From Aureispira anguillae (GTDB lineage Bacteria; Bacteroidota; Bacteroidia; Chitinophagales; Saprospiraceae): a stretch of DNA of 64,000 nt. The stretch's first letter is position 1. Every line of letters begins with the position of its first letter. The notes under the pieces were generated by a model. That model was given only the letters and a program-made list of their open reading frames with translations. It had not been told where the DNA came from and made no database searches. The stretch is taken from positions 2,139,501 to 2,203,500 of the forward strand of contig NZ_AP026867.1 of the NCBI RefSeq assembly GCF_026000115.1. Direction: 5' to 3'. Shown piece after piece: positions 34,350 through 53,139 of this stretch. Both the position numbers and the translations under genes were made by a program.

Positions 34350-35972
34350 TTAAACCAAAGAAGGGCTATACTGCTCTTTTGGGGTATAACTAGCCCATTC
34401 AGAAGGCAAGTTGATCCCTTGCGTTTTTAGGGCTTGAACACGGTACAAATAAGCTGCGCCATCCATGATATGCCCTGCAATATCAGCAGCTACACGATTT
34501 TCGTAAGCTTCCAAATAAGTGCCTTTCGCCCAATCGTTGAATGCGCCCATTGCAGGACCGCACCAAATTTGCATATCGGTAACACGCTCTTTGACACCTG
34601 CATTAGCCCAATTAGAAGACAAGCCTAGATACCAACGGAAAATCAACGCCATTTTTCGTTTGGGGTTATTGAGTGCTCGTTCGATTTGGTGTGGGTCTCG
34701 CTCTTGGAAAAACTCAATACAACCTTGCCAAATCTCTTCCAACGGTTTTTTAAAGGTTTGCTTTTCTAATTTTTCTCGTTCTGCTTGAGGGATTTCATCA
34801 ATAGAATTGTACTGCGTATAGAACTCATAAAGTTTTTTGGCTCTAGGACCAAACAAGGTGCCTCTTTTGAGTACCTGTAGCTCTACGCCCATCTCAAACA
34901 TATCTGAGGCAGGAGCCATCATAACATCTGTTTGTGATACATTGGCCAACAATTTTCGAACATGCTCTGAGGTTCCTGCTTCAACACAAGCTTGATTGAC
35001 AGAACCCGTAACGATATAGGCAGCTCCCATCATAAAGGCAGAAAGAGCCGATTCAGGAGTAGAAATTCCTCCTGCTGCGCCAATTCTAATAGGCGTTTCA
35101 AATTGGTGAACTTCTTGCAATTCATCTCTTAGGCGAATGATAGAAGGCAACAAAGCAACCAAAGGACGATTGTCGGTGTGTCCTCCAGAGTCTGCTTCTA
35201 CTGTAATATCATCTGCCATTGGCACTTTGGCAGCTAGCTGTGCTTGTAAAGCCGTAATTTTTCCATCTGCCAACAGTTGATCTAAATATTTTTTAGGAGC
35301 GGGCTGCATAAAATGGCTAGCAACTTCCTTGCGAGAAATCTTGGCAATCACTCGATTATTGATTTGTACATTTCCTGCTGCATCTTGGCTCAACCCTGCT
35401 ACTCTATAATGAACAATATTGATGGTCAAGCTTAAAAAAGCAGAAGCTTCAACAACACGTACTCCTCTACTCAAAAAGTGTTTTACAGCACCTTCCTCTA
35501 GTGCAGGCTCATTGGGACTGTGGATAAGGTTAAAGGCATAAGATTCTGTTTTTAGAGCATCTTGAATGGTATTAATGGCTTGTTCTACTCTATTAGGAAC
35601 CAAACCTGCTGCTCCAAATGAACCCAATAAACCAGCTTTCCCCATTGCAATTACCAACGCTTCAGAGGCAATTCCATTGGCCATTGCGCCTGTTTTGTAA
35701 GCGTGTTTCAATTGGTAATCTCTTCTGAAGGTAGGATCACCAAGTTGTTCAGCGGTCATAGGAGCAACCATACCCAATAACTGCAAACCATTGCCATTGG
35801 TATTTAATTCGCCTGCATTGGCAACTCCAATTCTACCTGCATGGTCCAAAACAACAAAACAGTTGTCGGCTGTGTTTTTTAATTTGCTTAATTGCCCTGC
35901 TTCATCCCAAGAAATTGAACGAGGAGAGCCCACCCAGTATAAATTCTGTTTTGTTCCTGTGAAAGTAATCAT
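34350..35972 (-). CDS. pfaD: PUFA synthase enoyl reductase PfaD
   Basis: 540 residues, the usual PfaD size. It is an FMN-dependent TIM-barrel enoyl reductase related to nitronate monooxygenase. Visible features are a barrel start with VVLDHAGRIGVANAG, GSFGAAGLVPNRVEQAI near 112-130, DSGGHTDNRPLVALLP near 264-279, AAGGISTPESALSAFMMGAA near 300-320 and MAPASDMFEMGVELQV near 355-370. It reduces the trans-2-enoyl-ACP intermediate in cycles where a saturated bond is wanted. It is the last gene of the operon, 23 bp after the acyltransferase. Confidence 0.95.
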   Translation of the reverse strand: MITFTGTKQNLYWVGSPRSISWDEAGQLSKLKNTADNCFVVLDHAGRIGVANAGELNTNGNGLQLLGMVAPMTAEQLGDPTFRRDYQLKHAYKTGAMANGIASEALVIAMGKAGLLGSFGAAGLVPNRVEQAINTIQDALKTESYAFNLIHSPNEPALEEGAVKHFLSRGVRVVEASAFLSLTINIVHYRVAGLSQDAAGNVQINNRVIAKISRKEVASHFMQPAPKKYLDQLLADGKITALQAQLAAKVPMADDITVEADSGGHTDNRPLVALLPSIIRLRDELQEVHQFETPIRIGAAGGISTPESALSAFMMGAAYIVTGSVNQACVEAGTSEHVRKLLANVSQTDVMMAPASDMFEMGVELQVLKRGTLFGPRAKKLYEFYTQYNSIDEIPQAEREKLEKQTFKKPLEEIWQGCIEFFQERDPHQIERALNNPKRKMALIFRWYLGLSSNWANAGVKERVTDMQIWCGPAMGAFNDWAKGTYLEAYENRVAADIAGHIMDGAAYLYRVQALKTQGINLPSEWASYTPKEQYSPSLV

Positions 35973-35995: not shown

Positions 35996-37324
35996 TTAAG
36001 ATTGAAGTTGTAATTGCTTAATAGACAACTGTTTTTTTAATAATCTTTTGAATGTTTGGACATATTGTTTCATATCACTTTCTGATATAACCTTAGCATC
36101 ATAACAAATACCAATTCTCAATTGTCCTTTATAGGTGTAAATGCTAATATATTTTTCGATCGTCATGGCAGAAGAAACAACAACAGGCAGATAGTGTGCT
36201 ATTTGGTATGAACCAGAAATATTAGGCTGCATAACGCCATAATTGGTCAAAATAAGCTCTGTATTTACCTTTGTTAAATCAAACTGCTTGATGAGTTTCT
36301 GAATGAGCCAATCTTTTCTCAGACCATACTTATTTAGATTAGCGGCATCCATTACAGAAGCCTTAATATCCAATAAGGTTAATAGACTCAATGGCTCCAT
36401 AGAATCAAACCACTCACTAACCTTTTGTTGCAATGCTTGTGCATAGACCTCTATCGGTTGCTCGTAGTGCTTAGGCAAATCTAATTTGATAGAATTGACG
36501 TAACAGCCCATCGCTTGCTTGGTATCTTTTAGTAGTTTTGGTCTAAGATTAGCCGTGATCATAAAATTTTTAATCGTGGGCTTTTTGTATACCTCAGCAG
36601 CTTGTCGAGCGTATAAAAATAACGTTCCCAAAAATGTATTGACAGAATAAGGCTTTGTTTTGCAATGCGCTATAATTGCCGTTGTCATTTCTGAACTAAA
36701 ATCTTCGATCAAAACCTTAGTCGCTCTATTGTCCCAATAGTTTTTATAAACTTGGTTAATCATAGGCTGCGTTAAGATCAGATCTTTTTTCTGCCAAAGC
36801 TTATTCACCAATTTAATCAGCATATTCTGACTCCAAGAATCTTGAAGGGCAGGAGCTAGTGCTTCAATAGGCTGATAATCGGGAATGGGCGGTAGTTCTT
36901 GACCATTTAATACCTGAATGATGTGTTTCAGTAAATTATTTAAGGACATACCATCACAAATGGCATGGTTGGCAACAACCATTAAATCAGTATGGGCTTC
37001 TCGTTGATTTAAAACAAAATGAATCAGTGGCTTTTGGTTGAGTTGATGGACAACTTGTAGCTCCTGATGTGCCAAAACATCGTAAGCAACATCCTGATAT
37101 TCTTTGACAAGAATCGTTAAGTCTGGCTTTAATAGTAGATAAGCATCATTATTTTCATCAATAATTGGAACCATCCGAAGAAAACAATGCTGTTGAGCTA
37201 CTTTATTTAACGCTTGTTCTATTGCCTCTTTAGAAACAATAGCATTCAAAGCCACTCCTGTTACAATATTGGTATTAGGAGAAGAGATAAAAAAACGTAA
37301 AATGCCAGATAACTTAATTTTCAT
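35996..37324 (-). CDS. HxxxD-type acyltransferase (condensation-domain-like)
   Basis: 442 residues without a signal peptide. The catalytic motif HAICDG (His120, Asp124) and the C-terminal strand pattern KYISIYTYKGQLRIGICYD near 400 match the condensation/PapA/WES superfamily. This superfamily transfers acyl chains from carrier proteins or CoA to an amine or alcohol. There is no adenylation or carrier domain, so it stands alone. Its place between pfaC and pfaD suggests it takes the finished PUFA from the ACPs of PfaA and transfers it to an alcohol or amine acceptor. Myxobacterial PUFA synthases fuse an acylglycerol-phosphate acyltransferase to the end of Pfa3 for a similar step; this protein may replace it. 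Function is inferred. Confidence 0.75.
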   Translation of the reverse strand: MKIKLSGILRFFISSPNTNIVTGVALNAIVSKEAIEQALNKVAQQHCFLRMVPIIDENNDAYLLLKPDLTILVKEYQDVAYDVLAHQELQVVHQLNQKPLIHFVLNQREAHTDLMVVANHAICDGMSLNNLLKHIIQVLNGQELPPIPDYQPIEALAPALQDSWSQNMLIKLVNKLWQKKDLILTQPMINQVYKNYWDNRATKVLIEDFSSEMTTAIIAHCKTKPYSVNTFLGTLFLYARQAAEVYKKPTIKNFMITANLRPKLLKDTKQAMGCYVNSIKLDLPKHYEQPIEVYAQALQQKVSEWFDSMEPLSLLTLLDIKASVMDAANLNKYGLRKDWLIQKLIKQFDLTKVNTELILTNYGVMQPNISGSYQIAHYLPVVVSSAMTIEKYISIYTYKGQLRIGICYDAKVISESDMKQYVQTFKRLLKKQLSIKQLQLQS

Positions 37325-37842: not shown

Positions 37843-40800
37843 TTAAGCTTCCTCGATTCCCAAGGCTAAATCAGTTACTTGATAGATGCGTGTCCCTTCA
37901 TTCCAAAGGTAGGCATCTCCAATAATTGCCAATTTGTCTCCTCGTTTTTCGATGGTTTTAAAATGTACTTCACAGTGCATATTTTCTACCCCCAATAGGA
38001 TCTGACCACGGTATTTCCAAACGGTTTTGTGGTTGTCTAATTGTACAAATTTAGGCGATTTAAAATCTTTGCCCAAGTTTTGTTGTAAGGCAAATGTTTG
38101 CATGGCTTGTAATATCGCCTCTACTCCCAAAGAACCAGGCATTACAGGATCTTGGTAGAAGTGGCAAGTAAAGAACCAATCGTACGTGTTAATTTTTTTA
38201 CTTGCGTGGATATAACCTTTGCCATGTTCACCACCATCTTTTACAATTTTTAGCGTATCCAATAATAACAATTGGTCTCCTGCTAAGCGATAATGAGGTT
38301 GGTCGGCAGGAGCTTTGAATAGCTTCATTTTGCCATATAACGAGTCCAGATTTATTTGTGTATAATCTTTAGGACTTAAGTTTTGGCTGATGTACCAAGC
38401 AGGAACTTCTGTTCCATTATCCAAACCAACCTGTTGTGCCAAGGCTTCGCCAGGGAAAAATCCAAAAGAAGATTTTCCTTTGTAGAATAAGTGCCCATCT
38501 ACTGTTAGTTCAAAGGTATAATTTTGAAGCACTGTGCCGCCTAGGGCTACAGAAGAAACCAATACAGATTTGTTGTGAATCGTTTTGCCTCTCAAATCTG
38601 TTCCGAAAGGTAAATCAAACATTTCGCCTGTTCCATCTAGGTTACGGAAGAACAAGTTTTTATCAGAAAATGGCAGAGTAGAACCCAAATAAGCCCCCAA
38701 TAAACCACAAGGCTGCAAGGCAATTTCCATTAGAACAGAATAAGGAATCGTAACATTAGAGTTTTGTTGGTAATACCAAGCATCAACAGGTACATCATAT
38801 TCTGCATAAATCGTAGAAGGCTTTTTGAAATTTAAGCGTTCTCCATCTACTTTTAATACCCTTGAAATTAATTGCAAATCGGTATTGGGCTGACGAGAAA
38901 CCGTTCTACCATCGTAACAAGCAAAGTCAGGACCAAAACATTTGGATAAGTTGTCTAGCGCAAAGGTAGTGATGTCTTTTTCATTGAGCAAAGCCCCTGC
39001 TGAACGAGGAGAAACCTTAACTCCTGCTTCTTTTTCTAAATATTTAGGATTGTCTTTTTCACGCAATTGCAAACCTAAGTTCTCAAAATGAACGGTAATA
39101 ACATCGTTAGAGATGATTTCTAGATCAGCAATAACATAAGGATTAGGAACCAAGCCGATCTCCTTAACTTCTAACTTGTAAATCAATTTCGTATCCTTGT
39201 GCGGAACAACTTGCTTGCGGCAACGTACCTTTTGAGGCAAGTCAAAAATAGGCTGATAACGAGCATCTTTGGTTAAACGTTGCAAACCTAACATTAACAT
39301 AAGGAATCGCAGTAGATTTCCGCCACCCTCTGCTTGCAAGGAACCCGCCAATACTTCATCATCTCGGAAGTGACTAGGGAAGTACCAATCATTTGGGTTC
39401 AAATCTTTTTCGGCTACGATATACCCCAAGCCATAAGCACCACCTTGTAGGTCAACAGAAGTAATGCGATCAAGCATCAAAATTTGCTCAGGAGGCAAGC
39501 ACAAAGACTTATTGCGCCCATTGGCATAATAAGAAATATTGCCAAAACATTTTTCTATATCGCCATTGATCAGATGGTGCAAATCTTCTTTAGAAAACGA
39601 CGTTTTAGTAGTATTTAATAAAGGCGTAAATTTAGGCTTTTTAGCATTTATTTTAGCGTCTAATTCTTCTTTGCTATAAACAACCCCAAGTCCTTCTTCC
39701 AGTTGTTCATCGGTAAAGAATCCAGCACAACCGTTGCGCATTTTTAAAACCAAACGATCTTCTACATAGCAGTTGTAGCTAAAGAAAAACAATAAGTTAT
39801 CTCCATTTCGAACAAAAGAATTGATTGAAATATCATATCGTAAGGTTTGCCCTTCAAAGGGTAGGTCATCTACAAAAGTAAGGGTGCAATCTAACAAGCG
39901 GTACACCAAATTCCCTTTGTTTTCAAAGTCAATTCCCAAGTAAGAAATCAACAGCAAGTCGCACTGTCCAGATTCTACAGAAACCGCCCAAGGAATTTGA
40001 CCATCAGTCGTAAACCAAGCATTGTACGGAATATCGTATTCGGTTTGCATGGTAGAAGGTTTGTATTCTCCTTTTTTACCGTTTAAGCCAGTTACACGAC
40101 TAACCAAAAGATAAGGATCCATTGGCAGCATTACCCGACGGCTATAACTGTCGATAATATCATATTCAGGACCAAATACTTTTCCGATTTTTCCCGTTGC
40201 AAACTCTTGTAAATCTTCTTGTGAGAAGATAATTGTTTTGCCTTTTAATTGTTCTCCAGATTCAAAATCTTGGAGTCGTAGACCATTTTCACCAATGTTT
40301 TGATTGGTGGCATTTTTGTTAACCGTTTCCATTGTTTTTGTTTCCAAGGTGACGACTGATTTTTGTGTTCCCGAAAAAGTATGAGAACTGGCTATTGAAA
40401 TATTTTTTTGATTGCTATCAGATGATTTTAGGGGGGCAGCACTAACCGAAGAGCTTACTGCTGCTACAGCTAATGCAGGCTCTTTTTTAGCTACTTTTTT
40501 TCTGGGTAAGTTGGCAAATTTAGCTTTGTTATTTTCATTTAACAAGGCATCAAAGATGCGTTGCCCACCTGTGATAATTTTCTTTTTGAACGAACGAGCC
40601 TCGGCTTCTTGAGAAATATTTTTGTATAAAATATCCAAATCCAATTGAAGACCATGACTGAGCAATTGAGCGATCACCTCAATGATGTTTTGGGCATCTG
40701 CTTTGCCCTTTTTGTTCATGCTAACGGCTAAGTGTTCTTTGGCTCCTAAGTTGGTTTTGATCCAGTTGGTACAAGTGGCATTGGCTCCCAATTCTACAAA

Positions 40801-43800
40801 AATTCTAGCTCCTTCTTGATAAAGGCTGTCAACCGTTTGAGGAAAATCAACCGTTCTACAGCAAACAGTGGTCGAATTTTCGGCTATTTGCTGACTATCA
40901 AGCGGTAATTTACTAGCACTAATACTAGAATAAAAATCGATGTTAGGTTGTATCTGGAGCGGAAATTTGTGCATTTCTATTAATTCATCGTATGCCGCTT
41001 GGCAGAAATTGTGATGAATAACATTTTGGAAAGGCACTTCAACGGAAGGGCAATTGAGTTCTTTTACAATTGCCAAACAAGTTGATTTTTCGCCAGAAAT
41101 TACCAGTTCATTATTGGTGTTTATAAAACTGACGTAGGTGTTTTCATGGCGAGCCACCAAGGCTTTAACTTGATCCTTTGGAGCCAGTACAACCAAACTA
41201 ATCCAACGCTTTTGGGCATCTTGAGGGGTTGTATTCCATACTTTTGCAAGCAGATTTAGATCACCAGATAATTCGGTTAAAAATAAATTAGAATTTCTAA
41301 AAATAGCGGTGCGTTCAGGACTCCAAACATCTAGTGAATACCACATACCCGCAGTTTCTCCCATGCTATAACCAAATGCCATTTGAGGTTCCAATTTGAG
41401 GTAGGAACGTAAAATATGGGTATAAATAGCAGAAGAGAAAACACCTGCGGACATCATAGCGATGGCATCTTTATGAATATTTGGAGTTGGTGCATCCTGC
41501 TGTTGCGTCTTGGGGTATAGATAGTCACAACCGACAAAATCTGCCATATCTGGCACTTTGTCTTCAAAATGGCTGTGCAACTGAGGAAAGAGTTGAAAAA
41601 CATCTTGCCCCAAGCCTGTATACGCAGTTGCAGAACCTGGATAGACAAAGGCTACTTTTCCTTTTTTAGCCAAGGGGTTTCCTGTAAAATAAGAACCTTT
41701 AGGGGTTTTTATTTCTTTGTTTTGAGCAATCGCACTACTCAACCCAAATTGGATGAATTTTAATTCTTGTGCTAGGCTTTTTTTATTGTTAGCAACAACA
41801 GAAATACAATACGTACTTTGTAGCGCTTTGCTATTGGTATAAAACTGCGCTGCAATTTGTGGCAACGTTTTTTTACTAGCTGCGGCCGTTTCTAAAGCTG
41901 CAATTTGTTGCTCTAGTTCTGCTTCTGTATTGCCTTTTAATAGAATAATATTGGCGATTCTACCATGGCTTAAAGGAGTGTCTTTAGCTTGATAAACACT
42001 TGCTTCAGTAAGTTGGATTTGTAACCCTTCTAGACCATTAATAGCAGCTTTTCGTTGACGTTGATTGCCATTTAACAACCAAGGACGAGACTGAGCAGGA
42101 AAATAATAATTACTTGCTGCAAATTCGTTCGCAGATTTAGGGGCTTTCCAGTTTGGAATACCAGGAATAAAGCGATGGTGCAGACACAAAGCGGTTTTGA
42201 TCAGACTAGCAATGCCCGAAGCTGCACAAGTATTTCCGATATTCGTCTTTATAGAACCTAGCGCCACGGCTTGCTGCTGTTCGGTCTGTAACAATTGGGC
42301 AATTTCCGCTTGATCTTGTTCTGGAATACCACTAGCAACGACCTCTTGGTAACCAATATCAAGCGATTTTTGAGCCTTGCCAATGTTATCAATGGTCGCA
42401 TAAACTTTATCCTCTAAGGCATCCTTACTGCGCTTTAAAACAACAGCACCAGCTCCTTCTCCAACCAACCAACCTTTGTCATCTTGGTTGAAACTCAAAC
42501 TAGGGTTCTCAGCAGTATTCGCAGGCGATTTTTGATTGCGCAGCAAGACATTTTCTAAGCCACCACAAAAATCAACTCCTCCAACTACTACGGCATCTAC
42601 TTCGCCCAATGAAAGCATGTTTTGAGCAACTTCCAAGGCCTTAAATACAGAATTTTCACCGCAAGAAACCGTAAAGGCTGGTCCAGAAAAATCCCAAAGT
42701 GCTGCAATTCGGCTGGCCATAATGTTTCCTACAAAACTAGTATGTTGGCTTGGGGTTTGTCCGCCATCTCTAAAGTATAAGGCATTTTTGCATTGTTCCT
42801 CCAACTCTTTTTCTTTTTCCTCATCTAGTATTATCCCGCTTTTCTTGATCGCATTTTTAATTTGCCAACTACTATCCCAACGAGAAAGGTAATGATGGAT
42901 GGCCAATTCCGATTCCATGGCAATTAACACCGCAATATTTTGACTTTCATGGATGCCTGCATCTTGCAGAGCTTTATCCGCAACACTCAAAATCAAAGCC
43001 TGTTGCGGTTCCAGTGTTTCGGCTTCTTTGGGTTGTATTTTATAGCGGAGCAAGTCAATTTCGAAGCTGTCAATATAAGCACCTTTAGGAGCATTCCCAT
43101 CTTCAAAACCATATTCTTTTAATAGCGTTTCATTGGCATCAAAACCTTTCCAGCGTTCAGCAGGCAAGGCTCTAAAATGTTGTTTGCCATTATAAATAGA
43201 AGCATAAAAATCTTCCAAATTGGTACAATCTCCAAAATAAGCCTCCATCCCTACAATAGACATAGGGAGAAGCGGAGTGGAAGGGTTCGGTTCTACGGCT
43301 TCATTTTCATAAGTTTGAATGACCATGTGTGCATTGGTCCCACCAAAACCAAAGGAATTAATCCCTGCTTGTTTCCCGTTCCAAGCCGTTTTTTTGCTGA
43401 TAATATGTTTGTCCTGCATCCATTGATTGTCCGCTTGTACGGCTTCTGTTAGATTGATGTTAGGAGGGATAAATCCCTTTTTCATAGACAAGAGCACCTT
43501 GAATAATCCCGTCATACCTGCCGCAGTGAGCAAGTGTCCCATATTCGATTTGACAGAACCCAAAAGAGGGTGTGTATTGTGTTGCTGAAAGAAATCAGAA
43601 ATCGAATTCATTTCCGTCACATCGCCCAAAGGAGTTCCCGTTGCATGGCATTCTAAATACGTTGTATTTTGTGGCAATACATCATCTAATAGATAAGCTC
43701 GTTCAAACGCTAATTTTTGCCCCTTGGGGTTAGGACTTAATAGAAATTTGCCTCGACCATCGTTAGACAAACCAATTCCACCAATAACGCCCAATATATT

Positions 43801-44637
43801 GTCGCCATCCCGTTGAGCGTCTTCTAGTCGCTTAAGCACTACAATTCCTGCTCCTTCGGAGGAAACCAACCCGCCAGAATTACTATCTAATGGTGCAAAT
43901 TTCTGATCGTGCGGCGCATAGGCATGAAAAATGGAAAAGCCCATGTGAATAAACAATTGATCAGAACCACAAACAGCCCCTGCCAACATCAAATCAGTTT
44001 TGCCAGTCATCAGATCATCACAAGCCAATTTGATTGCATAAAGAGAAGTTGCACAAGCGGCATCTAATGCATAGTGACCGCCCCCTAAGCCCAAGCCTTT
44101 TACCACCATTTCGGATGGGGTATAGGTCAATACTTCATTTTCTGGTTGCGGGTAATTATGCGCTTGGATTTTAAAGTTCTTATCTTGAAGTAATTCTTGC
44201 AATACTTGCTCTGTCGTTTGGGTATAAACACTAGACAGTAACTTATGAGAAGAACCTGTTGGAAAAGAAAGGTTGCCCAAGATAAGGCCACATTTTTCCA
44301 AAACAGCTTCGTTGTTATAATAACCGCTATCTTTGAGTGCTTCTTTGGCAACATACAAAGACCATTGGTACAATTTATCTTGTTTTGCCACAAAATCTTC
44401 AGCCAATTGATAGCCGCTAGGATCGAAATCAAAATTGCGAATGTAACCACCTCGCAAGGAATAACATTTGTCTACCAAGCCTTTGCCTGGCTCATAAAAA
44501 TGATTTGGATCTACTCCAAAATCTTCTTTGTTGGCAAACTCAATTAAATTTTTCTCACCCACTAGGTTGTCCCAGAATTCTTCGTTGGTCGAAGAACCTG
44601 GAAACAAACCTGACATTCCTATGATTGCTATTTTCAT
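37843..44637 (-). CDS. pfaC: PUFA synthase PfaC with fused AT: KS-CLF-AT-DH-DH
   Basis: 2,264 residues. Domain order: ketosynthase (1-450; Cys195 in DAACATS, His331 in CHATGT, His368 in GHLL); chain-length factor (455-850), which has lost the catalytic set (SCGENS for the Cys region, GNTCAASG with Asn for the second His, no HGTGT); acyltransferase (about 990-1330; Ser1091 in GYSMGE); a Ser/Thr/Lys-rich linker (1370-1450); and two FabA-like double-hotdog dehydratases (about 1465-1880 and 1890-2260). Their catalytic histidines are His1756 in HFRDDEVLAGS and His2159 in HFYQDPVMPGS. The fused AT does the work of the separate PfaB of Shewanella and Moritella. This layout is that of the myxobacterial Pfa3 and thraustochytrid OrfB types. 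The dehydratases introduce and isomerise double bonds. Confidence 0.95.
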   Translation of the reverse strand: MKIAIIGMSGLFPGSSTNEEFWDNLVGEKNLIEFANKEDFGVDPNHFYEPGKGLVDKCYSLRGGYIRNFDFDPSGYQLAEDFVAKQDKLYQWSLYVAKEALKDSGYYNNEAVLEKCGLILGNLSFPTGSSHKLLSSVYTQTTEQVLQELLQDKNFKIQAHNYPQPENEVLTYTPSEMVVKGLGLGGGHYALDAACATSLYAIKLACDDLMTGKTDLMLAGAVCGSDQLFIHMGFSIFHAYAPHDQKFAPLDSNSGGLVSSEGAGIVVLKRLEDAQRDGDNILGVIGGIGLSNDGRGKFLLSPNPKGQKLAFERAYLLDDVLPQNTTYLECHATGTPLGDVTEMNSISDFFQQHNTHPLLGSVKSNMGHLLTAAGMTGLFKVLLSMKKGFIPPNINLTEAVQADNQWMQDKHIISKKTAWNGKQAGINSFGFGGTNAHMVIQTYENEAVEPNPSTPLLPMSIVGMEAYFGDCTNLEDFYASIYNGKQHFRALPAERWKGFDANETLLKEYGFEDGNAPKGAYIDSFEIDLLRYKIQPKEAETLEPQQALILSVADKALQDAGIHESQNIAVLIAMESELAIHHYLSRWDSSWQIKNAIKKSGIILDEEKEKELEEQCKNALYFRDGGQTPSQHTSFVGNIMASRIAALWDFSGPAFTVSCGENSVFKALEVAQNMLSLGEVDAVVVGGVDFCGGLENVLLRNQKSPANTAENPSLSFNQDDKGWLVGEGAGAVVLKRSKDALEDKVYATIDNIGKAQKSLDIGYQEVVASGIPEQDQAEIAQLLQTEQQQAVALGSIKTNIGNTCAASGIASLIKTALCLHHRFIPGIPNWKAPKSANEFAASNYYFPAQSRPWLLNGNQRQRKAAINGLEGLQIQLTEASVYQAKDTPLSHGRIANIILLKGNTEAELEQQIAALETAAASKKTLPQIAAQFYTNSKALQSTYCISVVANNKKSLAQELKFIQFGLSSAIAQNKEIKTPKGSYFTGNPLAKKGKVAFVYPGSATAYTGLGQDVFQLFPQLHSHFEDKVPDMADFVGCDYLYPKTQQQDAPTPNIHKDAIAMMSAGVFSSAIYTHILRSYLKLEPQMAFGYSMGETAGMWYSLDVWSPERTAIFRNSNLFLTELSGDLNLLAKVWNTTPQDAQKRWISLVVLAPKDQVKALVARHENTYVSFINTNNELVISGEKSTCLAIVKELNCPSVEVPFQNVIHHNFCQAAYDELIEMHKFPLQIQPNIDFYSSISASKLPLDSQQIAENSTTVCCRTVDFPQTVDSLYQEGARIFVELGANATCTNWIKTNLGAKEHLAVSMNKKGKADAQNIIEVIAQLLSHGLQLDLDILYKNISQEAEARSFKKKIITGGQRIFDALLNENNKAKFANLPRKKVAKKEPALAVAAVSSSVSAAPLKSSDSNQKNISIASSHTFSGTQKSVVTLETKTMETVNKNATNQNIGENGLRLQDFESGEQLKGKTIIFSQEDLQEFATGKIGKVFGPEYDIIDSYSRRVMLPMDPYLLVSRVTGLNGKKGEYKPSTMQTEYDIPYNAWFTTDGQIPWAVSVESGQCDLLLISYLGIDFENKGNLVYRLLDCTLTFVDDLPFEGQTLRYDISINSFVRNGDNLLFFFSYNCYVEDRLVLKMRNGCAGFFTDEQLEEGLGVVYSKEELDAKINAKKPKFTPLLNTTKTSFSKEDLHHLINGDIEKCFGNISYYANGRNKSLCLPPEQILMLDRITSVDLQGGAYGLGYIVAEKDLNPNDWYFPSHFRDDEVLAGSLQAEGGGNLLRFLMLMLGLQRLTKDARYQPIFDLPQKVRCRKQVVPHKDTKLIYKLEVKEIGLVPNPYVIADLEIISNDVITVHFENLGLQLREKDNPKYLEKEAGVKVSPRSAGALLNEKDITTFALDNLSKCFGPDFACYDGRTVSRQPNTDLQLISRVLKVDGERLNFKKPSTIYAEYDVPVDAWYYQQNSNVTIPYSVLMEIALQPCGLLGAYLGSTLPFSDKNLFFRNLDGTGEMFDLPFGTDLRGKTIHNKSVLVSSVALGGTVLQNYTFELTVDGHLFYKGKSSFGFFPGEALAQQVGLDNGTEVPAWYISQNLSPKDYTQINLDSLYGKMKLFKAPADQPHYRLAGDQLLLLDTLKIVKDGGEHGKGYIHASKKINTYDWFFTCHFYQDPVMPGSLGVEAILQAMQTFALQQNLGKDFKSPKFVQLDNHKTVWKYRGQILLGVENMHCEVHFKTIEKRGDKLAIIGDAYLWNEGTRIYQVTDLALGIEEA

Positions 44638-44682: not shown

Positions 44683-47184
44683 TTACCACTCCAATTCTTT
44701 CGAAACGGTTACCGCTGCATTCTTAGTAAATAGATAAACCTCGCCATTCTCATCGTAAGTCGTACAATTGGCCACCATTTTAAATTCATTGCTTTCGACA
44801 ATTTCTATATGAACGAACAATTCTTTGCCAAAAGGAACAGGTTTGTAAACCGTTGCGGACTCAGTAGACAAAGGCAATGATTTAGCACCATTGTTATAGC
44901 GTTGAACCCAGATCACCATTCCTTGATATTGAATGTCTGAAAAGAAGGTATTCACGCCAAGAACAGGAAATTGCCCTTGATCTTTTTGAGGAACTTCAGG
45001 AGCTTTGCATTTTAAGACGATTTGATTTTCTGTCCAGTCCAAAACTTGTTCAATTCCTCGAAAATACTCCCCATGAAACAAAGAACCATCTTGATACAAG
45101 GTTTCGCCATTGGTGGGAGTATAAGTATTGCTTACTTGGTGCTGAAAAGTAGGAATGTCCAACTTATTTTTCTTAGCAACTAAGGTAATATTTGCTTTGT
45201 AGTGATAGGTTGGTAACTTAGCAGTAGGAGCTTGACTCAATACTGTTGTTTCAATAATGATGGTATCCGAATCTTTCTGAATTTCTTTTAGCTCTACAAT
45301 ATAATTAGTGGGAGCAGTTCCATCAAAAACCAACCCTTTGAACAATTTGGCATCTTTGACAATATGCACGGCAAAATCGGGAAATACTTGTTCGCAAGTA
45401 TTGGCCATCCATCCCACAGCGTTAACAACAGGCAATACAGCATTACCTTGGATCACGTGATGCATCAAAAAAGGATTATCTTTTAACGTCATGCTTCTGT
45501 GAATTCGATGGGTTTCTAGTGCTCCCTCTGTATAACTAATGCCAGCAGGTAAAGTCCCTCCAATGATTACTTGCGGTTGATCTGCATAAGCAATGTTCAT
45601 TTCGTTGACCATCATAGCAGGACCTCCTTCGCTATTGACCAAAACAACGCCCATTTCTTCGAATTTTTTCTTTAAGGCATCGCTAACCATTCCAGCATCC
45701 CAAGCACCCCAGTTGATTGCTGATACTTGTGTATTCGGATGATTGGTTCTAAAGAGATGCGCAGCCTTGCTTAAGATTTCATTGGCAATAGCATAATCGG
45801 TTTGTCCTACATTACCATAAAAACCAGCAACAGAAGAAAAGAGTACCAAATGCTCCAATTTGTGAATGTTTACACATTGCAATAGCGTTAATAAACCATC
45901 TAGTTTTACCGTTAGAACATTTAAAAAATCTTGCTCGGCTTTGTCTTGAATGTATTTATCGGCCAAACGCCCTGCACCGTGAATGATTCCTGTGATATTG
46001 CCCCATCTTTTGGTGATGGCAAGCAATTGTGGTTTGACAGTAGTAACATCCGTTACATCCCCTTTAATATAAACCGCTTGACCACCATTTTGCTTGATGG
46101 CTTGGATTGTTTGGTCAATTTCTTTTTTGGCAACAATGCTATTAAAAATCTTCTTGACCTCTGCTAAATTAGGTTTTTGACCCTTGTTTTTCATATCGGT
46201 CATAATCAAGCGTTTTAAGGCTCCATCATCCGACTCATTTTTAGCATATTCAGGAATTTCAAAGGCATAGTTAGAGCGTCCCAAGAGGATAAACTTAGAT
46301 TGGAAAGCTTTAGCCATTTCGATTACACAGTTGGCCGTTACGCCACGAGCGCCACCACTTACCAAAAACACAGCATTTTCATTCACTGCGGTTTCAATTT
46401 GTTTATTTTCATAAACGTTTACCTTTTTAGCGGCTAGCATTGCTCTACCATCTTCGCTAATTGCAGTTTCTATAACCGAACGATTAGGGTCGTGTAATTC
46501 GGTTAGAATATGATTCGCAATTGTAGTTGTTGTTAATTCTGGTTGAATATCAACGGCACGACAATAAACTTGTGACCATTCTAAATTTAAACATTTAACA
46601 AGCCCATTTAGTCCACCTCCAACAATAGACGTATTGCCTCGTTTGCCCAAGCCAGATTTACCATCTAGGCGAGTAACCGTCATAAAGTTGGCTCTATTGG
46701 TTTTACCCAATTCATTTAAAGAAGGTTGGATGTGTTTGGCGATTAAGAAGACCGCTTTGGTTAAGTCTCGTTCTATGGCAAAGTGCTGTGCAAAGTTGCC
46801 ATTTTGAAACTCAAAATGAGGATGCAAATGGATGAAGGTTCCTATTTGCCCGTATTGATTTTGAATGGTTTCAATAGCTGTTTTAATTGCTTGGTCGGTA
46901 TTAGAAGAGAGGCTAACAGCATTGGAAGTGATGGGGTTTTTCACTTGATGAAGGTTCAGAACGACTACTTTGTTCCCTTTTTGCTCTAAGGCTTGAAGAA
47001 CCTGTAAACTTAGTTCTGAACCATCATTAGTGATGAGTGCAACGTGTGTATCAGGAAGTGTGAACTCCAAATAATCAGGTTTAGGTAAGTATTTTAAACC
47101 GATCTCATTGCGTTCAACACCATGAAAGGAAGATGTTGTTGTAAAGTTTTTTGGGTAAGCTTTTACGGTAACATCTTCCCCCAC
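44683..47184 (-). CDS. pfaA: KR-DH protein: C-terminal part of PfaA, on its own frame
   Basis: 833 residues from a GTG start. Residues 40-260 form a Rossmann-like structural half. Residues 268-530 are the active ketoreductase (SGGARGV near 276-282, Ser450/451 in LFSSVAGFYG, Tyr464 in QTDYAIAN). Residues 565-833 are a polyketide-type dehydratase hotdog (NPFLMHHVIQGNAVLP). In Shewanella, Moritella and myxobacterial PfaA these modules lie in one chain behind the ACPs. Here the frame is open upstream to the A9 run at the end of the KS-AT-ACP gene, with no ATG. A -1 shift would add SPSVIDTTKAT and join the two. The GTG could start a separate subunit by translational coupling (20-bp gap). Confidence 0.9.
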   Translation of the reverse strand: MGEDVTVKAYPKNFTTTSSFHGVERNEIGLKYLPKPDYLEFTLPDTHVALITNDGSELSLQVLQALEQKGNKVVVLNLHQVKNPITSNAVSLSSNTDQAIKTAIETIQNQYGQIGTFIHLHPHFEFQNGNFAQHFAIERDLTKAVFLIAKHIQPSLNELGKTNRANFMTVTRLDGKSGLGKRGNTSIVGGGLNGLVKCLNLEWSQVYCRAVDIQPELTTTTIANHILTELHDPNRSVIETAISEDGRAMLAAKKVNVYENKQIETAVNENAVFLVSGGARGVTANCVIEMAKAFQSKFILLGRSNYAFEIPEYAKNESDDGALKRLIMTDMKNKGQKPNLAEVKKIFNSIVAKKEIDQTIQAIKQNGGQAVYIKGDVTDVTTVKPQLLAITKRWGNITGIIHGAGRLADKYIQDKAEQDFLNVLTVKLDGLLTLLQCVNIHKLEHLVLFSSVAGFYGNVGQTDYAIANEILSKAAHLFRTNHPNTQVSAINWGAWDAGMVSDALKKKFEEMGVVLVNSEGGPAMMVNEMNIAYADQPQVIIGGTLPAGISYTEGALETHRIHRSMTLKDNPFLMHHVIQGNAVLPVVNAVGWMANTCEQVFPDFAVHIVKDAKLFKGLVFDGTAPTNYIVELKEIQKDSDTIIIETTVLSQAPTAKLPTYHYKANITLVAKKNKLDIPTFQHQVSNTYTPTNGETLYQDGSLFHGEYFRGIEQVLDWTENQIVLKCKAPEVPQKDQGQFPVLGVNTFFSDIQYQGMVIWVQRYNNGAKSLPLSTESATVYKPVPFGKELFVHIEIVESNEFKMVANCTTYDENGEVYLFTKNAAVTVSKELEW

Positions 47185-47204
47185 AGTTGCTTTTGTTGTA
47201 TCTA

Positions 47205-50200
47205 TTACGCTAGGACTTTTTTTTTACTTCCTGCTTTTTCAGCTAAGTAATCAACAATTTGTCCAAGGGTACGCAATTCTGTTAATTCTTGAGGATTGAC
47301 ACCAGAAACCTCAGGGTAATCTTCAGTCATAGCGCCAAAGATTTCTACTCTTTTGATCGAGTCAATACCAAGGTCAGCTTCCATGTCCATGTCCAATTCC
47401 AACATTTCAGTAGGATAACCTGTTTTTTCACTGATAACGGTCAATAGAATTTCTTCTAATTTTTGCGTGCTTAAACCACCAGCGTTAGCAGTTGGCGCAG
47501 CAGGAGTAACAGGCGTTGTAGTAGCTGTAGTTGCGGTTGCAGAAGCACCAGCTTTGCCAGCTAAGTAATCAACAATCTGCCCAAGGGTACGCAATTCCGT
47601 TAATTCTTGAGGATTAACACCAGAAACCTCAGGGTAATCTTCAGTCATAGCGCCAAAGATTTCTACTCTTTTGATGGAGTCAATACCAAGGTCAGCTTCC
47701 ATATCCATGTCCAATTCTAACATTTCAGTAGGATAACCCGTTTTTTCACTGATAACAGTCAATAGAATTTCTTCTAATTTTTGCGTGCTTAAACCGCCAG
47801 TGTTAGCAGTTGGCGCAGCAGGAGTAACAGGTGTTGCCGTTGGAGCGGGCGTTGTAGTAGCTGTAGTAGTGGTTGCAGAAGCACCAGCTTTACCAGCCAA
47901 GTAATCAACAATCTGCCCAAGGGTACGCAATTCTGTTAATTCTTGAGGATTGACACCAGAAACCTCAGGGTAATCTTCAGTCATAGCGCCAAAGATTTCT
48001 ACTCTTTTGATCGAGTCAATACCAAGGTCAGCTTCCATATCCATGTCCAATTCTAACATTTCAGTAGGATAACCCGTTTTTTCACTGATAACAGTTAATA
48101 GAATTTCTTCTAATTTTTGCGTGCTTAAACCGCCAGTGTTAGCCGTTGGCGCAGCAGGAGTAACAGGCGTTGCCGTTGGAGCAGGAGTTGTAGTAGCTGT
48201 CGTTGCGGTTGCAGAAGCACCAGCTTTACCAGCCAAGTAATCAACAATCTGCCCAAGGGTACGCAATTCTGTTAATTCTTGAGGATTGACACCAGAAACC
48301 TCAGGGTAATCTTCAGTCATAGCGCCAAAGATTTCTACTCTTTTGATCGAGTCAATCCCAAGGTCAGCTTCCATATCCATGTCCAATTCCAACATTTCAG
48401 TAGGATAACCCGTTTTTTCACTGATAACAGTTAATAGAATTTCTTCTAATTTTTGCGTGCTTAAACCACCAGTGTTAGCAGTTGGCGCAGCAGGAGTAAC
48501 AGGCGTTGTCGTTGGAGCAGGCGTTGTAGTAGCTGTCGTTGCGGTTGCAGAAGCACCAGCTTTACCAGCCAAGTAATCAACAATCTGCCCAAGGGTACGC
48601 AATTCTGTTAATTCTTGAGGATTGACACCAGAAACCTCAGGGTAATCTTCAGTCATAGCGCCAAAGATTTCTACTCTTTTGATCGAGTCAATACCAAGGT
48701 CAGCTTCCATATCCATGTCCAATTCCAACATTTCAGTAGGATAACCCGTTTTTTCACTGATAACAGTCAATAGAATTTCTTCTAATTTTTGCGTGCTTAA
48801 ACCGCCAGTGTTAGCAGTTGGCGCAGCAGGAGTAACAGGCGTTGCAGTCGGTGCAGGAGTAATGATTGGCTCGTTGCTAGCTACTGCTGGTTGAAAAGAT
48901 GGCGCTGCAATTTTTTCTACTTTTGCTTCTTGTAGAGAAGCTTGAACAGTAGCTTGTAAAGCAGGTTGATTTGCCAAATTAAGTTGCTGAGTCATCATTT
49001 GCAGCAACAATTGGGATTGTTTATTTTGTTCGCTAAGGAAGTTTTGAAATAACTCCAATGATTTGTTTTGCTGAGAGGTTACCATCTCAACAGTTGCTTT
49101 TAGCGTTTCAATCAATTCTTTATTCATTTCTTCGTCTTCTTCTATATTAATATTATTAGAATGAACTACCTTTTCAACAGGAACCTCAATAATTTTTTCG
49201 ACAATCTTTTCAACAGGTACTTCTTTGATAACTTCAACCACTTTTTCAACTACTTGACCTCCTCCCTTAACTTGATAACCGTCGTTTAAGGCATCGTAAT
49301 AAGCCTTTTGGGTAGGTTTGCTGACATAGTTATGTCCTCCCATATTGATGGTCATTTTAGTTTTTGGAGCTGGTTTTGTGCTAGGAGCTTTAAAAGGATC
49401 TAGTTCATGGAGTGCTAAACCTAAAACTCTTAGTTGGAGTACTGCTTGACGGAATTGCAAGTCGCTATCCTTTTTAGCATTGCCATTCATAGCCAAAGCA
49501 ATAAAATCTTTCCCTTTTAGGATGTCTTTTACCAAGTTAGACAAGACACCTTTGGGACCAAATTCTATAAAAATACGACCACCTGCTTGGTGAATATTCT
49601 CAATTTGGTTTTTGAATAAAACAGGCTTTAATATTTGCCCTTGCAAAATTTCTTTAATAGAAGCAGGGGCAGTAGGATATGGATTAGAAGTGGTATTGGA
49701 ATAAACAGGAACCTTAGGTGCTTGGAAATTTTGACGAGCAACAAAGTCGGCAAAAGGTTTTTGAGCATGTCCTACAAATTCGGTATGAAAGGCAGCAGAA
49801 ACAGGCAATGGAATAACTGCAAAGCCTTGATTTTTTAATGTTTCTTGTGCTGTTGCAATTGCAGGTTTACTTCCACCAAGGATTACTTGATTATTGGAAT
49901 TTACATTTGCAATTTTTACCCCTTGCAAGTTTTGAATCGCAGCATTTACTTTGTTATAATCTGCTTTTACAGCTAGCATTGTCCCTGCATCTGCATTTGG
50001 ACTTTGAGCAGCCATTGCTTCGCCTCTTGCTTTTGCTAAGGCTAAAAATGTAGCATCATCATAAACACCAGCAGCCCACAAAGCCGTTAATTCACCAAAA
50101 CTGTGTCCCGCAACAAAGTCTGCCTTAAATCCAGCATCTTGAATGGTTTTGTACATTCCCATACTCAAGGCACCAATGGCAGGTTGAGCATTTTGTGTTT

Positions 50201-52148
50201 GCGTTAGCGCTTGCAATTGAGTTGCAGCATCTTCCTTGTTAAAAACAGGGATTGGATACATTGTTTCAGATAGAGCAGGGCGGTTAGCCTGTGTAAATAA
50301 GCGATCTTGTTGGTCAATAACCGTGCGTAATTGCGGAAAAGCATTAACCAATTGTCTACCCATTCCAACATATTGAGAACCTTGACCAGAAAACAATGCT
50401 ACTACTTTACCTTGGGCATCCATGCCATTCGGACGGAAGTAGATGCCTTTAGGGTGTTCCCAAGCATTATTGCTAGTAGATAATTTTTGAATGGCTAGCG
50501 TTAGCACTTCTTTAGCGGATGCTATATCGGTCGTCATGAAACCAAGACGAGCTGCATTCGCTGGAATATTTTGAGTTTGGTGATTTACCAATTCCCAAAA
50601 AGCAATTTCTTGATCTGCGGTATTTAACTGTTCTAATTTATTTTGGCAGAGTTGAGCCAAGTCAGCAACAGTATTGGCTTGTAATACGACTGCTTTGTAA
50701 GGCTCGTGAATTCTATAATCTTTTTCTACAGGTTGAGCTTGGTATTCTTCTAAAGCAATGTGAACATTAATTCCACCAAAACCAAACGCACTAACACTGG
50801 CACGACGAGGCTCGTTGTTGTTGAACCAAGGGCGAGCTTCTGTATTGATATACAAAGGAGAATCTTTTAAATCTACCTTTTCTGTAGGTTGATCTACATT
50901 GATGGTTGGAGGCAATACTTTATGATGCAAAGCAAGAACTGCTTTTAGCAAGCCCGCAGCACCAGCAGCGGCTTTGGTATGACCTACTTGAGATTTGACA
51001 GTACCAAGAGCAATATGTGATTTTTGATCGTTATTGGCACTAAAAACCATTCCCATAGAAGTCAATTCGCAAGCATCACCAGCATTGGTTCCTGTTCCAT
51101 GTGCTTCGATTAAGCCAACGGTTTTGGCTTCAAAGCCAGCTTCTTCATAAGCTCTATTCATTGCCGAGGCTTGACCAGAAGGTCGAGGAGCATAAACCGA
51201 TTTAAAACGCCCATCACTTGATGTTCCAACGCCTTTGATGACAGCATAAATTGTATCACCATCTCGTTCAGCATCTTCTAGACGTTTTAGAACAACCATA
51301 CCCAAACCTTCACCGATCAACATGCCATCTGCTTTATCGCTAAATGGGCTGATAACATTAGATTTAGAGAAAGCAGGAGTCTTAGAGAAAGACATATACA
51401 TAAAAGGAGAGTTGTCGGTATCTACTCCACCTGTTAGCATCATATCTGCACGTCCTTCAACCAATTCGCTTAGTGCCATTTTTACCGCACTCAAAGAAGC
51501 AGCACAAGCAGCATCTACAACCGAGTTAATTCCACCTAAGTCAAAGCGATTGGTAATTCGTCCAGAAATAACATTACCCAACATACCTGGGAAAGAATTT
51601 TCATTCCAACCAATGTAGGCTTTTTTCATTTTATCAACAATGTGAGGAATGTCTGTTTCTGCGATACCACAAGAACGCAGTGCTTTTTCCCAAATAGGAT
51701 ATTGCAAACGCCCTGTAAGCGGAGTAATCAATTTTTGACCTCCACCAACGCCTAGAAGAACGCCTGTTTTAGCTTTTACCTCTGCTGTGAATTTCTCTGA
51801 TTTTTTGCCATAGCCAGCATGTGCAAATGCATCACGAGCAGCAATCAACGCCAATAATTGAGAAGCATCTGTAACTTCTAAGATATTGGGTGGTAATCCA
51901 AATTCCATTGGATTGAAATCAATATTAGGCAAGAAACCACCACGTTTACAATATGTTTTGTCTGGAACGGTTGGGTCTGGATCATAATAATCCTCTATGC
52001 GCCAACGGTTCTCAGGAACATCTGTGATGCTATCTCTAGCTTGGACAATATTATTCCAGAATTCTTCAATATTTTTTGCATCTGCAAATAAAGAAGACAT
52101 ACCGATAACGGCAACTGGAGTTTTACGTAGCGAATTGTTTAAGTTCAT
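47205..52148 (-). CDS. pfaA: PUFA synthase PfaA, N-terminal part: KS-AT-five tandem ACPs
   Basis: 1,647 residues. The ketosynthase occupies 8-470 with Cys215 (DAACAAS), His350 (EAHGTGT) and His390 (GHTKAA). The malonyl-CoA acyltransferase spans about 580-890 with Ser683 (GHSFGE) and His788 (SAAFHTE). A hinge with a VEKIVEKIIEVPVEKVV repeat (about 965-1000) precedes five acyl carrier proteins. Each has its phosphopantetheine serine in LGIDSIKR: Ser1155, Ser1267, Ser1379, Ser1491, Ser1597. The ACPs are separated by Ala/Thr/Pro-rich linkers. The protein ends GSKKKVLA in a run of nine A residues. More ACPs usually mean more product. It loads malonyl units, condenses them and carries the growing PUFA chain. 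Confidence 0.95.
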   Translation of the reverse strand: MNLNNSLRKTPVAVIGMSSLFADAKNIEEFWNNIVQARDSITDVPENRWRIEDYYDPDPTVPDKTYCKRGGFLPNIDFNPMEFGLPPNILEVTDASQLLALIAARDAFAHAGYGKKSEKFTAEVKAKTGVLLGVGGGQKLITPLTGRLQYPIWEKALRSCGIAETDIPHIVDKMKKAYIGWNENSFPGMLGNVISGRITNRFDLGGINSVVDAACAASLSAVKMALSELVEGRADMMLTGGVDTDNSPFMYMSFSKTPAFSKSNVISPFSDKADGMLIGEGLGMVVLKRLEDAERDGDTIYAVIKGVGTSSDGRFKSVYAPRPSGQASAMNRAYEEAGFEAKTVGLIEAHGTGTNAGDACELTSMGMVFSANNDQKSHIALGTVKSQVGHTKAAAGAAGLLKAVLALHHKVLPPTINVDQPTEKVDLKDSPLYINTEARPWFNNNEPRRASVSAFGFGGINVHIALEEYQAQPVEKDYRIHEPYKAVVLQANTVADLAQLCQNKLEQLNTADQEIAFWELVNHQTQNIPANAARLGFMTTDIASAKEVLTLAIQKLSTSNNAWEHPKGIYFRPNGMDAQGKVVALFSGQGSQYVGMGRQLVNAFPQLRTVIDQQDRLFTQANRPALSETMYPIPVFNKEDAATQLQALTQTQNAQPAIGALSMGMYKTIQDAGFKADFVAGHSFGELTALWAAGVYDDATFLALAKARGEAMAAQSPNADAGTMLAVKADYNKVNAAIQNLQGVKIANVNSNNQVILGGSKPAIATAQETLKNQGFAVIPLPVSAAFHTEFVGHAQKPFADFVARQNFQAPKVPVYSNTTSNPYPTAPASIKEILQGQILKPVLFKNQIENIHQAGGRIFIEFGPKGVLSNLVKDILKGKDFIALAMNGNAKKDSDLQFRQAVLQLRVLGLALHELDPFKAPSTKPAPKTKMTINMGGHNYVSKPTQKAYYDALNDGYQVKGGGQVVEKVVEVIKEVPVEKIVEKIIEVPVEKVVHSNNINIEEDEEMNKELIETLKATVEMVTSQQNKSLELFQNFLSEQNKQSQLLLQMMTQQLNLANQPALQATVQASLQEAKVEKIAAPSFQPAVASNEPIITPAPTATPVTPAAPTANTGGLSTQKLEEILLTVISEKTGYPTEMLELDMDMEADLGIDSIKRVEIFGAMTEDYPEVSGVNPQELTELRTLGQIVDYLAGKAGASATATTATTTPAPTTTPVTPAAPTANTGGLSTQKLEEILLTVISEKTGYPTEMLELDMDMEADLGIDSIKRVEIFGAMTEDYPEVSGVNPQELTELRTLGQIVDYLAGKAGASATATTATTTPAPTATPVTPAAPTANTGGLSTQKLEEILLTVISEKTGYPTEMLELDMDMEADLGIDSIKRVEIFGAMTEDYPEVSGVNPQELTELRTLGQIVDYLAGKAGASATTTTATTTPAPTATPVTPAAPTANTGGLSTQKLEEILLTVISEKTGYPTEMLELDMDMEADLGIDSIKRVEIFGAMTEDYPEVSGVNPQELTELRTLGQIVDYLAGKAGASATATTATTTPVTPAAPTANAGGLSTQKLEEILLTVISEKTGYPTEMLELDMDMEADLGIDSIKRVEIFGAMTEDYPEVSGVNPQELTELRTLGQIVDYLAEKAGSKKKVLA
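47217..47225 (-). other. A9 run at the end of pfaA: candidate -1 slippage site
   Basis: The plus strand shows T9, so the mRNA reads AGT followed by nine A residues then GTC. The zero frame reaches tandem stops TAA-TAG after three more codons. The -1 frame passes through AGT CCT AGC GTA without stops straight into the KR-DH reading frame. AGGA lies 3-7 bases upstream of the run. Transcript slippage, ribosomal frameshifting or an indel error are all possible. Confidence 0.6.
47241..48806 (-). repeat. Five tandem ACP repeats in pfaA (336-bp period)
   Basis: Five copies of an 80-residue ACP core, separated by 26-32-residue linkers. The spacing is 336 bp for three steps and 318 bp for the last step (a 6-residue deletion in the linker). 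The protein cores are identical in all five copies apart from the last residue or two. The DNA copies differ only at scattered third positions, which points to recent duplication or gene conversion. Confidence 0.95.
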
Positions 52149-52186: not shown

Positions 52187-52804
52187 TTATAACATAACTT
52201 TAAAAAGTTCTTCTTGCATTTTTAGTTGTTCTACGCCTTTTTCTGTACAAACGCCTCTTAAGTAAGGAATCATAATACCAAAGGTCAGGCGTTCTTTGCT
52301 AAATTCAGAAACAGGAAAACGATTGGTATCTTTTAGCATTTCCAATAGTGCTAAAACCGTCTTGCTCGTAACTTGAATATCTATGTCTTCTCTAAATAAA
52401 CCATCTTTGATTCCCCATTTAGCCAATTGCTCTAGTTCTGAATGGGCGAAATTGCCCATGTTTCTATAGGACTGTTGCAACAAACCAGGGTAGTAGTGTA
52501 AGATGTCATTAAAGAAGTTTGGATTGGTCTGACTAGCTCTGAAAATGATACGCTGGTGTAAGTATCCCATTGCTTGGATTGCATTTTCAGCGGCACGTAT
52601 AATGTCATCATTTTCTTTGCGAATACCTTTATGATAGGTAGCCAAGCAAGCTTCTAGCAAAGCTGTTTTGTCTTCAAAATGTTTGTAAATGGTTCTCTTG
52701 GAAGTGTGAAGTTGTTTGACAATACGGTCTATTGTAATGGTCTTGACACCATGTTCTACAAAAAGCAAAGAAGCAACTTCGATTATTTTCTCTCTAGAAA
52801 CCAT
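52187..52804 (-). CDS. TetR regulator heading the pfa operon
   Basis: About 205 residues from the ATG at 52804 (MVSREKIIEVA); a GTG at 52858 would add a leader that overlaps the promoter. The TetR helix-turn-helix is clear (VEHGVKTITIDRIVKQLHTS then KRTIYKHFEDKTALLEA). The C-terminal domain is helical with a hydrophobic core and is inferred to sense acyl-CoA or a lipid. It lies 38 bp upstream of pfaA on the same strand, so it is co-transcribed with the synthase and probably autoregulates it. TetR-type regulators are also near some pfa loci, while PfaR of Shewanella is of a different type. Confidence 0.85.
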   Translation of the reverse strand: MVSREKIIEVASLLFVEHGVKTITIDRIVKQLHTSKRTIYKHFEDKTALLEACLATYHKGIRKENDDIIRAAENAIQAMGYLHQRIIFRASQTNPNFFNDILHYYPGLLQQSYRNMGNFAHSELEQLAKWGIKDGLFREDIDIQVTSKTVLALLEMLKDTNRFPVSEFSKERLTFGIMIPYLRGVCTEKGVEQLKMQEELFKVML

Positions 52805-53139
52805 AAATTTTTTGTGTTTAAAGAACCAGTGGTAATTTTTTTGTCTCGTCAGTACCACAAAGGAATGAAAGAAATTTTACATCTCCAATTTTGTAGGATT
52901 TTAAATGCTAAATTTTACAAAAAATTAACGATTCAAGGAGAATTTGTTAATTTGCTAGACAAAAATTTAAATTAAGCAAGAGATAAAAAGAGCAGATGTG
53001 GATTTATAGTTTAGTTTCTTTTTATGTTTTGATTAGCAATTGTTTGTGTCTGTTGGTTTAGTGCTGAATACCAATGTTGGATTTGCTTTTTGATTTGGAT
53101 TAATGGAAGAAAAAGCTTTTTTTGTAAAAAAACTTTACG
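52805..53139. other. Divergent region between the pfa operon and the LRR-BRCT gene
   Basis: 335 bp. It holds the candidate pfa promoter at 52858-52889 and two direct copies of AAATTTTACA (52872-52881 and 52910-52919). The plus-strand promoter of the LRR gene was not identified. No gene is credible here. Confidence 0.5.
52858..52889 (-). promoter_or_regulatory. Candidate promoter of the pfa operon
   Basis: On the minus strand ATTG, 20 bases, then TTCCTTTG, one mismatch from each consensus box (TTTG and TAnnTTTG). It lies about 54 bp before the TetR start codon. Confidence 0.4.

Follow-up and report, generated by a model that had tools for sequence, protein, structure and literature searches.

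Heptamers of the X_XXY_YYZ type are the standard ribosomal slip motif. In genes of the E. coli dnaX type, -1 frameshifting takes place at the heptamer A_AAA_AAG with the aid of a hairpin, and the shift leads quickly to a stop codon and a shorter product. In the IS3-family and other transposases, a -1 shift at A-rich motifs makes a longer product from overlapping frames. Stimulators of -1 frameshifting generally start 5–8 nt downstream (PMC4066793, whose reference list includes the paper on the dnaX stem-loop), and transcriptional slippage in dnaX of Thermus thermophilus is mentioned in PMC1088944.

The polyunsaturated fatty acid (PUFA) synthases have been described in other terms. The pfaA genes of Psychroflexus torquis and Ulvibacter appear in print as split into pfaA1 and pfaA2 (PMC3098273), the KR region of Aureispira marina was described as 'separate from the pfaA gene' (PMC4882568), and KR was called 'a stand-alone enzyme' (PMC12964715). 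The original prediction had assumed that KR follows the ACPs in one chain in every PfaA; in the passages of these three papers, the group in question is known as the split 'Type D' pfaA, in which, moreover, pfaB is fused to pfaC (PMC3098273). A 2026 paper describes a split pfaA from Cyanobacteria whose parts are separated by another gene (PMC13291983). A full-text literature search, judged by titles, beginnings of abstracts and passages, found no report of frameshifting in a PUFA synthase, and the main text of a survey of prokaryotic frame transitions (PMC3711429) contains none of the terms 'ketoacyl', 'fatty acid' and 'acyl carrier', and a single 'polyketide', which refers to a cyclase.

The interrupted pfaA gene of Aureispira anguillae

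The window analyzed here is a stretch of 64,000 nt from the genome of A. anguillae (NZ_AP026867.1, positions 2,139,501–2,203,500), whose minus strand encodes a PUFA synthase cluster. It comprises a TetR-family regulator recognized by a domain match (52187–52858) directly upstream of pfaA, pfaA itself, a pfaC-type subunit with two KS-like and two FabA-like stretches (37843–44637) and pfaD with the PfaD_N and NMO domains (34350–35972), the last two identified by domain searches. A condensation-domain-like protein is encoded at 35996–37324, between the pfaC-type gene and pfaD. The 0-frame of pfaA (47205–52148, 1647 aa, ending in GSKKKVLA) covers KS, AT and five ACPs (Pfam: ketoacyl-synt, Acyl_transf_1 and five PP-binding stretches). 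The KR-DH part occupies a second frame (44683–47223), open from inside the A-run, with a KR domain (PF08659), a PKS_DH_N match slightly below the cut-off and a PS-DH match slightly above it. Such composition corresponds to the Type D layout, with KS-AT-tandem ACP, KR in another frame, and adjoining pfaC-type and pfaD genes; the AT of the published Type D, sought in the pfaC-type protein of the window, gave no Pfam match. The same domain order, separate KR frame and adjacent pfaC-type and pfaD genes characterize P. torquis and A. marina (AB980240), which were compared by their published descriptions; they have been presented as having two genes, whereas we read the KR frame as a -1 extension of pfaA.

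The original prediction placed the split of pfaA at a run of nine A residues and proposed that slippage by -1 joins the two frames into a protein of 2,488 residues, and the arrangement described is confirmed by the sequence. The run lies at 47217–47225 of the minus strand (AGT AAA AAA AAA GTC; T9 on the plus strand), in the 0-frame context GGA AGT AAA AAA AAA GTC CTA GCG TAA TAG, with the TAA stop (47205–47207) three codons past the run and TAG immediately after it (47202–47204). The tail between the run and the stop (47208–47216) encodes VLA. The KR-DH frame stands at -1 relative to the KS-AT-5ACP frame and is open from about 47223 to 44683; translation with the shift gives 2,488 aa, with the peptide KKKSPSVIDTTK across the junction. 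This frame was predicted to have GTG as its sole start and no ATG, and indeed GTG at 47182–47184 is its first start-type codon and the only ATG, GTG or TTG between the slip site and the conserved FHGVER motif. The same GTG, which falls inside the 5' arm of a predicted linker stem, is also present in close Aureispira relatives.

The A9 contains an in-phase A_AAA_AAA and has the length of about nine or more A/T residues associated with transcriptional slippage. It is the only sense-strand A9 in the 37 ORFs of at least 150 aa in the window (57,150 nt), which contain five sense-strand A8 runs. In-phase A_AAA_AAA or A_AAA_AAG is common in the same ORFs (23 cases), so the motif alone proves nothing, and A9 is not rare genome-wide either (455 matches to the pattern on one strand and 493 on the other, overlapping ones included and irrespective of coding status). 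A chance A-run was considered as an explanation of the junction and rejected.

We consider it very probable, given the sequence of the junction and its counterparts in relatives, that the A9 run serves programmed -1 recoding, which would yield both a truncated KS-AT-ACP protein and the full 2,488-residue PfaA. Part of the synthesis would keep to the 0-frame and terminate no more than three codons past the run, so that the truncated PfaA comprises KS, AT and five ACPs; another part would slip by -1 at the A-run, enter the KR-DH frame and give the complete protein. Both products would be expected in the cell in a certain ratio, and the truncated one may serve the enzyme complex as an extra ACP protein devoid of KR. 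A similar arrangement is found in the IS3-family transposases, where two overlapping frames are likewise joined at A-rich motifs by a shift that yields the longer product, but pfaA encodes a chromosomal biosynthetic megasynthase and is not part of a mobile element. With the Thermus dnaX, pfaA would share the slip at an A-run within the coding region and products that differ at the C-terminus; in Thermus, however, it is the shorter protein that is novel.

Slip motifs in relatives

The first survey, of 40 genomes, revealed KR-DH open frames of 835–872 aa in all nine close matches with an intact start, and no fused frame of 2,400 aa; a scan of the contigs of genomes yielded 28 loci. Matches were then recorded in 14 of 396 genomes of the order survey, in 61 of 398 genomes (26 of 112 genera) of the family survey and in 68 of 340 genomes of an order-wide survey centred on the Nostoc genome that carries L051, and in a phylum-wide sample of 395 genomes at E <= 1e-60 the window's own genome was the sole match. 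Two other families of the class contain paralogues of about 30% identity with frames of about 2,340–2,400 aa (7 of 207 and 13 of 211 genomes), and the interruption of pfaA was found in relatives down to about 40–44% identity. The junction was read in 74 interrupted loci, including the window and many metagenome assemblies; 12 loci sharing identical junction DNA were merged, which left 62 distinct junctions. These loci share ancestry, so the counts given below are comparative evidence and do not represent independent events.

Weak partial matches to KR alone (L011–L030) were left out, as were second copies (L002, L003, L005, L006, L007, L009, L038, L052, L054, L060, L066), L008/L043 (contig begins within KR), the distant and fused L065, and family-survey matches starting deep in the protein (G1231, G1225, G1217, G1163 and the second place in G1315). 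In the set L121–L161, both parts are present in 40 of 41 loci, L135 having no ACP in reach. Manual assignment was used for L125 (stop within the last ACP) and for L132 and L133, which lack an A-run, and the Nostoc-order survey contributed 30 listed loci and 20 paralogue stretches.

A comparison of the run in relatives had been proposed along with the original prediction, and it strongly supports slippage by -1: a slip motif occupies the same place in every one of the 74 interrupted loci (62/62 distinct junctions), and the KR frame is at -1 in 61 of the 62 and at +1 in one. Among the 54 distinct sites from Bacteroidota, 22 are A10, 19 are A9 (plus L137, the +1 case), ten are A_AAA_AAG and two are G_GGA_AAG; the eight from Cyanobacteria are A9 (6), A10 (1) and A8 (1). 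The A9 or A10 homopolymer is thus present in 48 of the 61 distinct -1 loci and absent from the 12 heptamer loci and the one with A8. The X_XXY_YYZ motif is in phase with the 0-frame in all 34 shifted loci analyzed for it, and the junction codons of the loci added later are also in phase with the slip motif; the shift in L137 is +1. In L132 and L133 the frame reads GTG GGA AAG followed by TAG or TAA, with no homopolymer at all. For 58 of 60 distinct loci, a stop closes the 0-frame within five codons after the slip motif. Runs of at least eight A occur in 28 of 34 shifted linkers (the remaining six have an in-phase A_AAA_AAG) and in 5 of 32 fused linkers, and number 11 in 284.5 kb of background coding sequence from 66 pfaA-type loci. 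The count of Lys codons within the runs was discarded as support, since it is circular for loci chosen by their A-run.

Several junctions show peculiarities of their own. In L137, A9 is followed by CGTAGG, and one more A in the run would restore -1; both a miscounted run and a real deviation are possible, and for single loci such as this one an assembly error may be the cause. L125 has an in-frame TAG within the last ACP, upstream of an otherwise ordinary A9 junction. The cyanobacterial L075 and L076, which have a -1 slip site, contain further stops within the KR-DH part and are possibly decaying genes. The 0-frame tails after the slip site often end in a hydrophobic residue followed by Ala (VLA, ILA, LVA, MMA; also HLA); such endings may act as a degradation tail, or may simply result from the overlap of the two frames.

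Fused relatives are found in both phyla. Among Bacteroidota they are the close relative L044 and the 31% identical L065. L044 has A11 at the same point, which encodes in frame the junction K-K-K-N-P-S, identical to the peptide read from the -1 frame of A10 loci (L041, for example). Most of the fetched relatives from the Nostoc order are fused, mostly with no run of seven or more A, and one clade of that order (five tree rows) has GAA AAA AAA AC with KR at -1; the A8 locus L082 is placed within a fused clade. Three changes between the fused and the shifted state are needed on a quick tree of 62 rows, which leaves out the short rows L070, L071, L075 and L076 and predates L121–L161. An in-frame run of 9–11 A at the ACP-KR boundary was also observed in the fused L068, L070, L071, L078 and L044, where a slip would lead to a shortened by-product.

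RNA structure downstream of the slip site

In the 12 heptamer loci, the first base pair within the 36 nt downstream of the slip site is at +7 in eight and at +8 in one, i.e. the hairpin begins after 6–7 nt; in L059, L159 and L161 it begins elsewhere. Folding z-values below -2 were obtained for 6 of the 12, as compared with 5% of control segments, and both features coincide in 5 of 12, with the reservation that the 36-nt length was chosen after the hairpins had been inspected and so the z-values favour the heptamer class. L132 and L133 possess a 9-bp hairpin 6 nt past G_GGA_AAG. This organization resembles that of the E. coli-type dnaX, with the same heptamer in phase, a close stop and a hairpin 6–7 nt downstream (9 of 12 heptamer pfaA loci); the difference, apart from the gene, is that in pfaA termination comes with standard decoding and the longer product requires the shift. 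The slip in the heptamer loci is most likely ribosomal, as A_AAA_AAG or G_GGA_AAG is mostly followed by a hairpin after 6–7 nt, and polymerase slippage on a run offers no explanation for L132 and L133, which have no homopolymer. The hairpin spacing fits the published range of 5–8 nt (PMC4066793).

The A9/A10 loci (42, including L137) have z < -2 in the proximal 36 nt in only two cases. Over the whole linker, z < -2 was obtained for 21 of 42, as compared with 6% of controls. With a codon-preserving null, p <= 0.05 was reached in 16 of 34 loci. No structure was detected by dinucleotide shuffling in the eight shifted linkers from Cyanobacteria, and Rfam searches of seven loci returned no family at threshold. 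Covariation in the hairpin of the A_AAA_AAG clade (four sequences) is not significant (259 of 500 shuffles); sliding of the helix destroys the signal. In the window, no proximal structure follows the slip site, and the predicted linker stem of 21 bp, with arms at 47170–47191 (5') and 47116–47137 (3'), is borderline (linker z -2.0, p 0.045; codon-preserving p 0.063). Strong linker hairpins beyond the slip site were seen in the window (47116–47191) and in L041, L042, L047, L050, L061, L063, L035 and L010. The linker hairpins of A9/A10 loci are unrelated in sequence across clades and mostly too distant for standard stimulators. At the A9/A10 sites, including the one in the window, slippage of either the ribosome or RNA polymerase is possible.

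Alternative explanations and significance

The published reading for P. torquis and A. marina (PMC3098273, PMC4882568, PMC12964715) is a gene fission, with pfaA1 (KS-AT-ACP) and pfaA2 (KR-DH) as separate genes and KR-DH translated from an internal codon, either independently or through translational coupling. In the window, GTG at 47184 could be used as such a start, and it recurs in close Aureispira relatives. Across the group, however, a start codon of this kind upstream of the conserved domain is not the rule: between the slip site and the conserved domain, 33 of the 61 distinct -1 loci have no ATG, GTG or TTG and 53 of 61 have no ATG. Over the same interval, measured to the first conserved residue (the FHGVER region, placed by tblastn alignment), the KR frame contains 0 stops in 1601 codons, as opposed to 155 in 1643 and 144 in 1657 for the other two frames; in 61/61 loci it remains open all the way from the slip site. 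A fission would not call for the nearly uniform -1 direction either, nor for a slip motif that is kept or replaced by another slip motif. A true fission looks different, as exemplified by a cyanobacterial paralogue (which we take to be probably a heterocyst glycolipid synthase), where slip sites were sought at the split and ordinary fission was found instead: in 22 loci (21 distinct) the KR half is in mixed frames (13 at -1, 9 at +1), the halves are 37–1121 nt apart in 20 loci and overlap by 25 nt in two, and an ATG is found near the start of the match in 22/22. In this paralogue (L101–L120, L070, L071) the split lies further downstream and separates the KR core from the N-terminal portion, with repeat-like intergenic DNA. 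As for function, passages of PMC5067506 report that pfaA-E of A. marina gave some arachidonic acid in E. coli, in agreement with separate genes, and that the yield rose 48-fold once its PfaA had been exchanged for that of Shewanella, a protein with a KR of its own; this is consistent with a requirement for covalently linked KR, although other causes are possible. Altogether, we regard the fission as quite improbable. Errors of sequencing or assembly, like gene decay, can practically be dismissed: homopolymers are error-prone, and the original prediction allowed for a lost A in the assembly, but that proposal is untenable, as the same junction is found in dozens of separate assemblies (in three contigs for G000 and two for G003), and also with two heptamer types that have no run of nine.

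Two further alternatives accept the slip itself. In one of them RNA polymerase slips at the A9/A10 sites, including the window, and some mRNAs with an extra A are translated normally into the full-length protein. According to a passage of PMC1088944, selection against sequences prone to slippage becomes apparent at a run length of nine in a large proportion of bacterial genomes; proximal stimulatory hairpins are nearly missing from these loci, as described above, and among the six A/T 9-runs of the window only that of pfaA is a sense-strand A-run of a listed ORF. On the other hand, a homopolymer is missing from the two G_GGA_AAG loci, and no more than six A are available in the ten with A_AAA_AAG, so one solution present in the family looks ribosomal; A9 and A10 also contain A_AAA_AAA, itself slippery for the ribosome, and polymerase slippage would allow +1 designs, of which L137 is the only one. 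We give slippage by the polymerase at these sites somewhat less than an even chance. In the other alternative, the truncated protein is a mere by-product, and the motif is kept only for the sake of the indispensable full-length PfaA. It could be speculated that the hydrophobic and Ala tails mark the truncated product for degradation, and fused relatives with no run at all, chiefly in Cyanobacteria, indicate that this product is not always needed. Yet the interruption is retained at 54 distinct junctions from Bacteroidota, and a single close relative (L044) was seen to be fused, although one base would suffice to remove the interruption; this suggests a use for the short product. According to PMC5067506, moreover, the yield of PUFA synthases is controlled by the number of ACPs. 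We consider the by-product explanation less probable than not.

Returning to the programmed -1 recoding at the A-run, its role could be that of a stoichiometric dial, which sets the proportion of the ACP-rich protein devoid of KR to the complete PfaA. Such a device would have had no fewer than two origins, one in Bacteroidota and one in Cyanobacteria, with exchanges between the homopolymer and the heptamer-plus-hairpin, and Type D would be largely a class of frameshifted genes; we give this broader view about an even chance. If true, one class of PUFA synthases has been misread as split genes, and heterologous expression from separately cloned pfaA and KR genes would miss the native linked enzyme, which is a testable reason for the poor yields of arachidonic acid. 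The family would also offer a natural series for studying the replacement of homopolymer by heptamer slip sites and vice versa, and recoding would set the domain ratio of a multidomain synthase of the fatty-acid/polyketide type.
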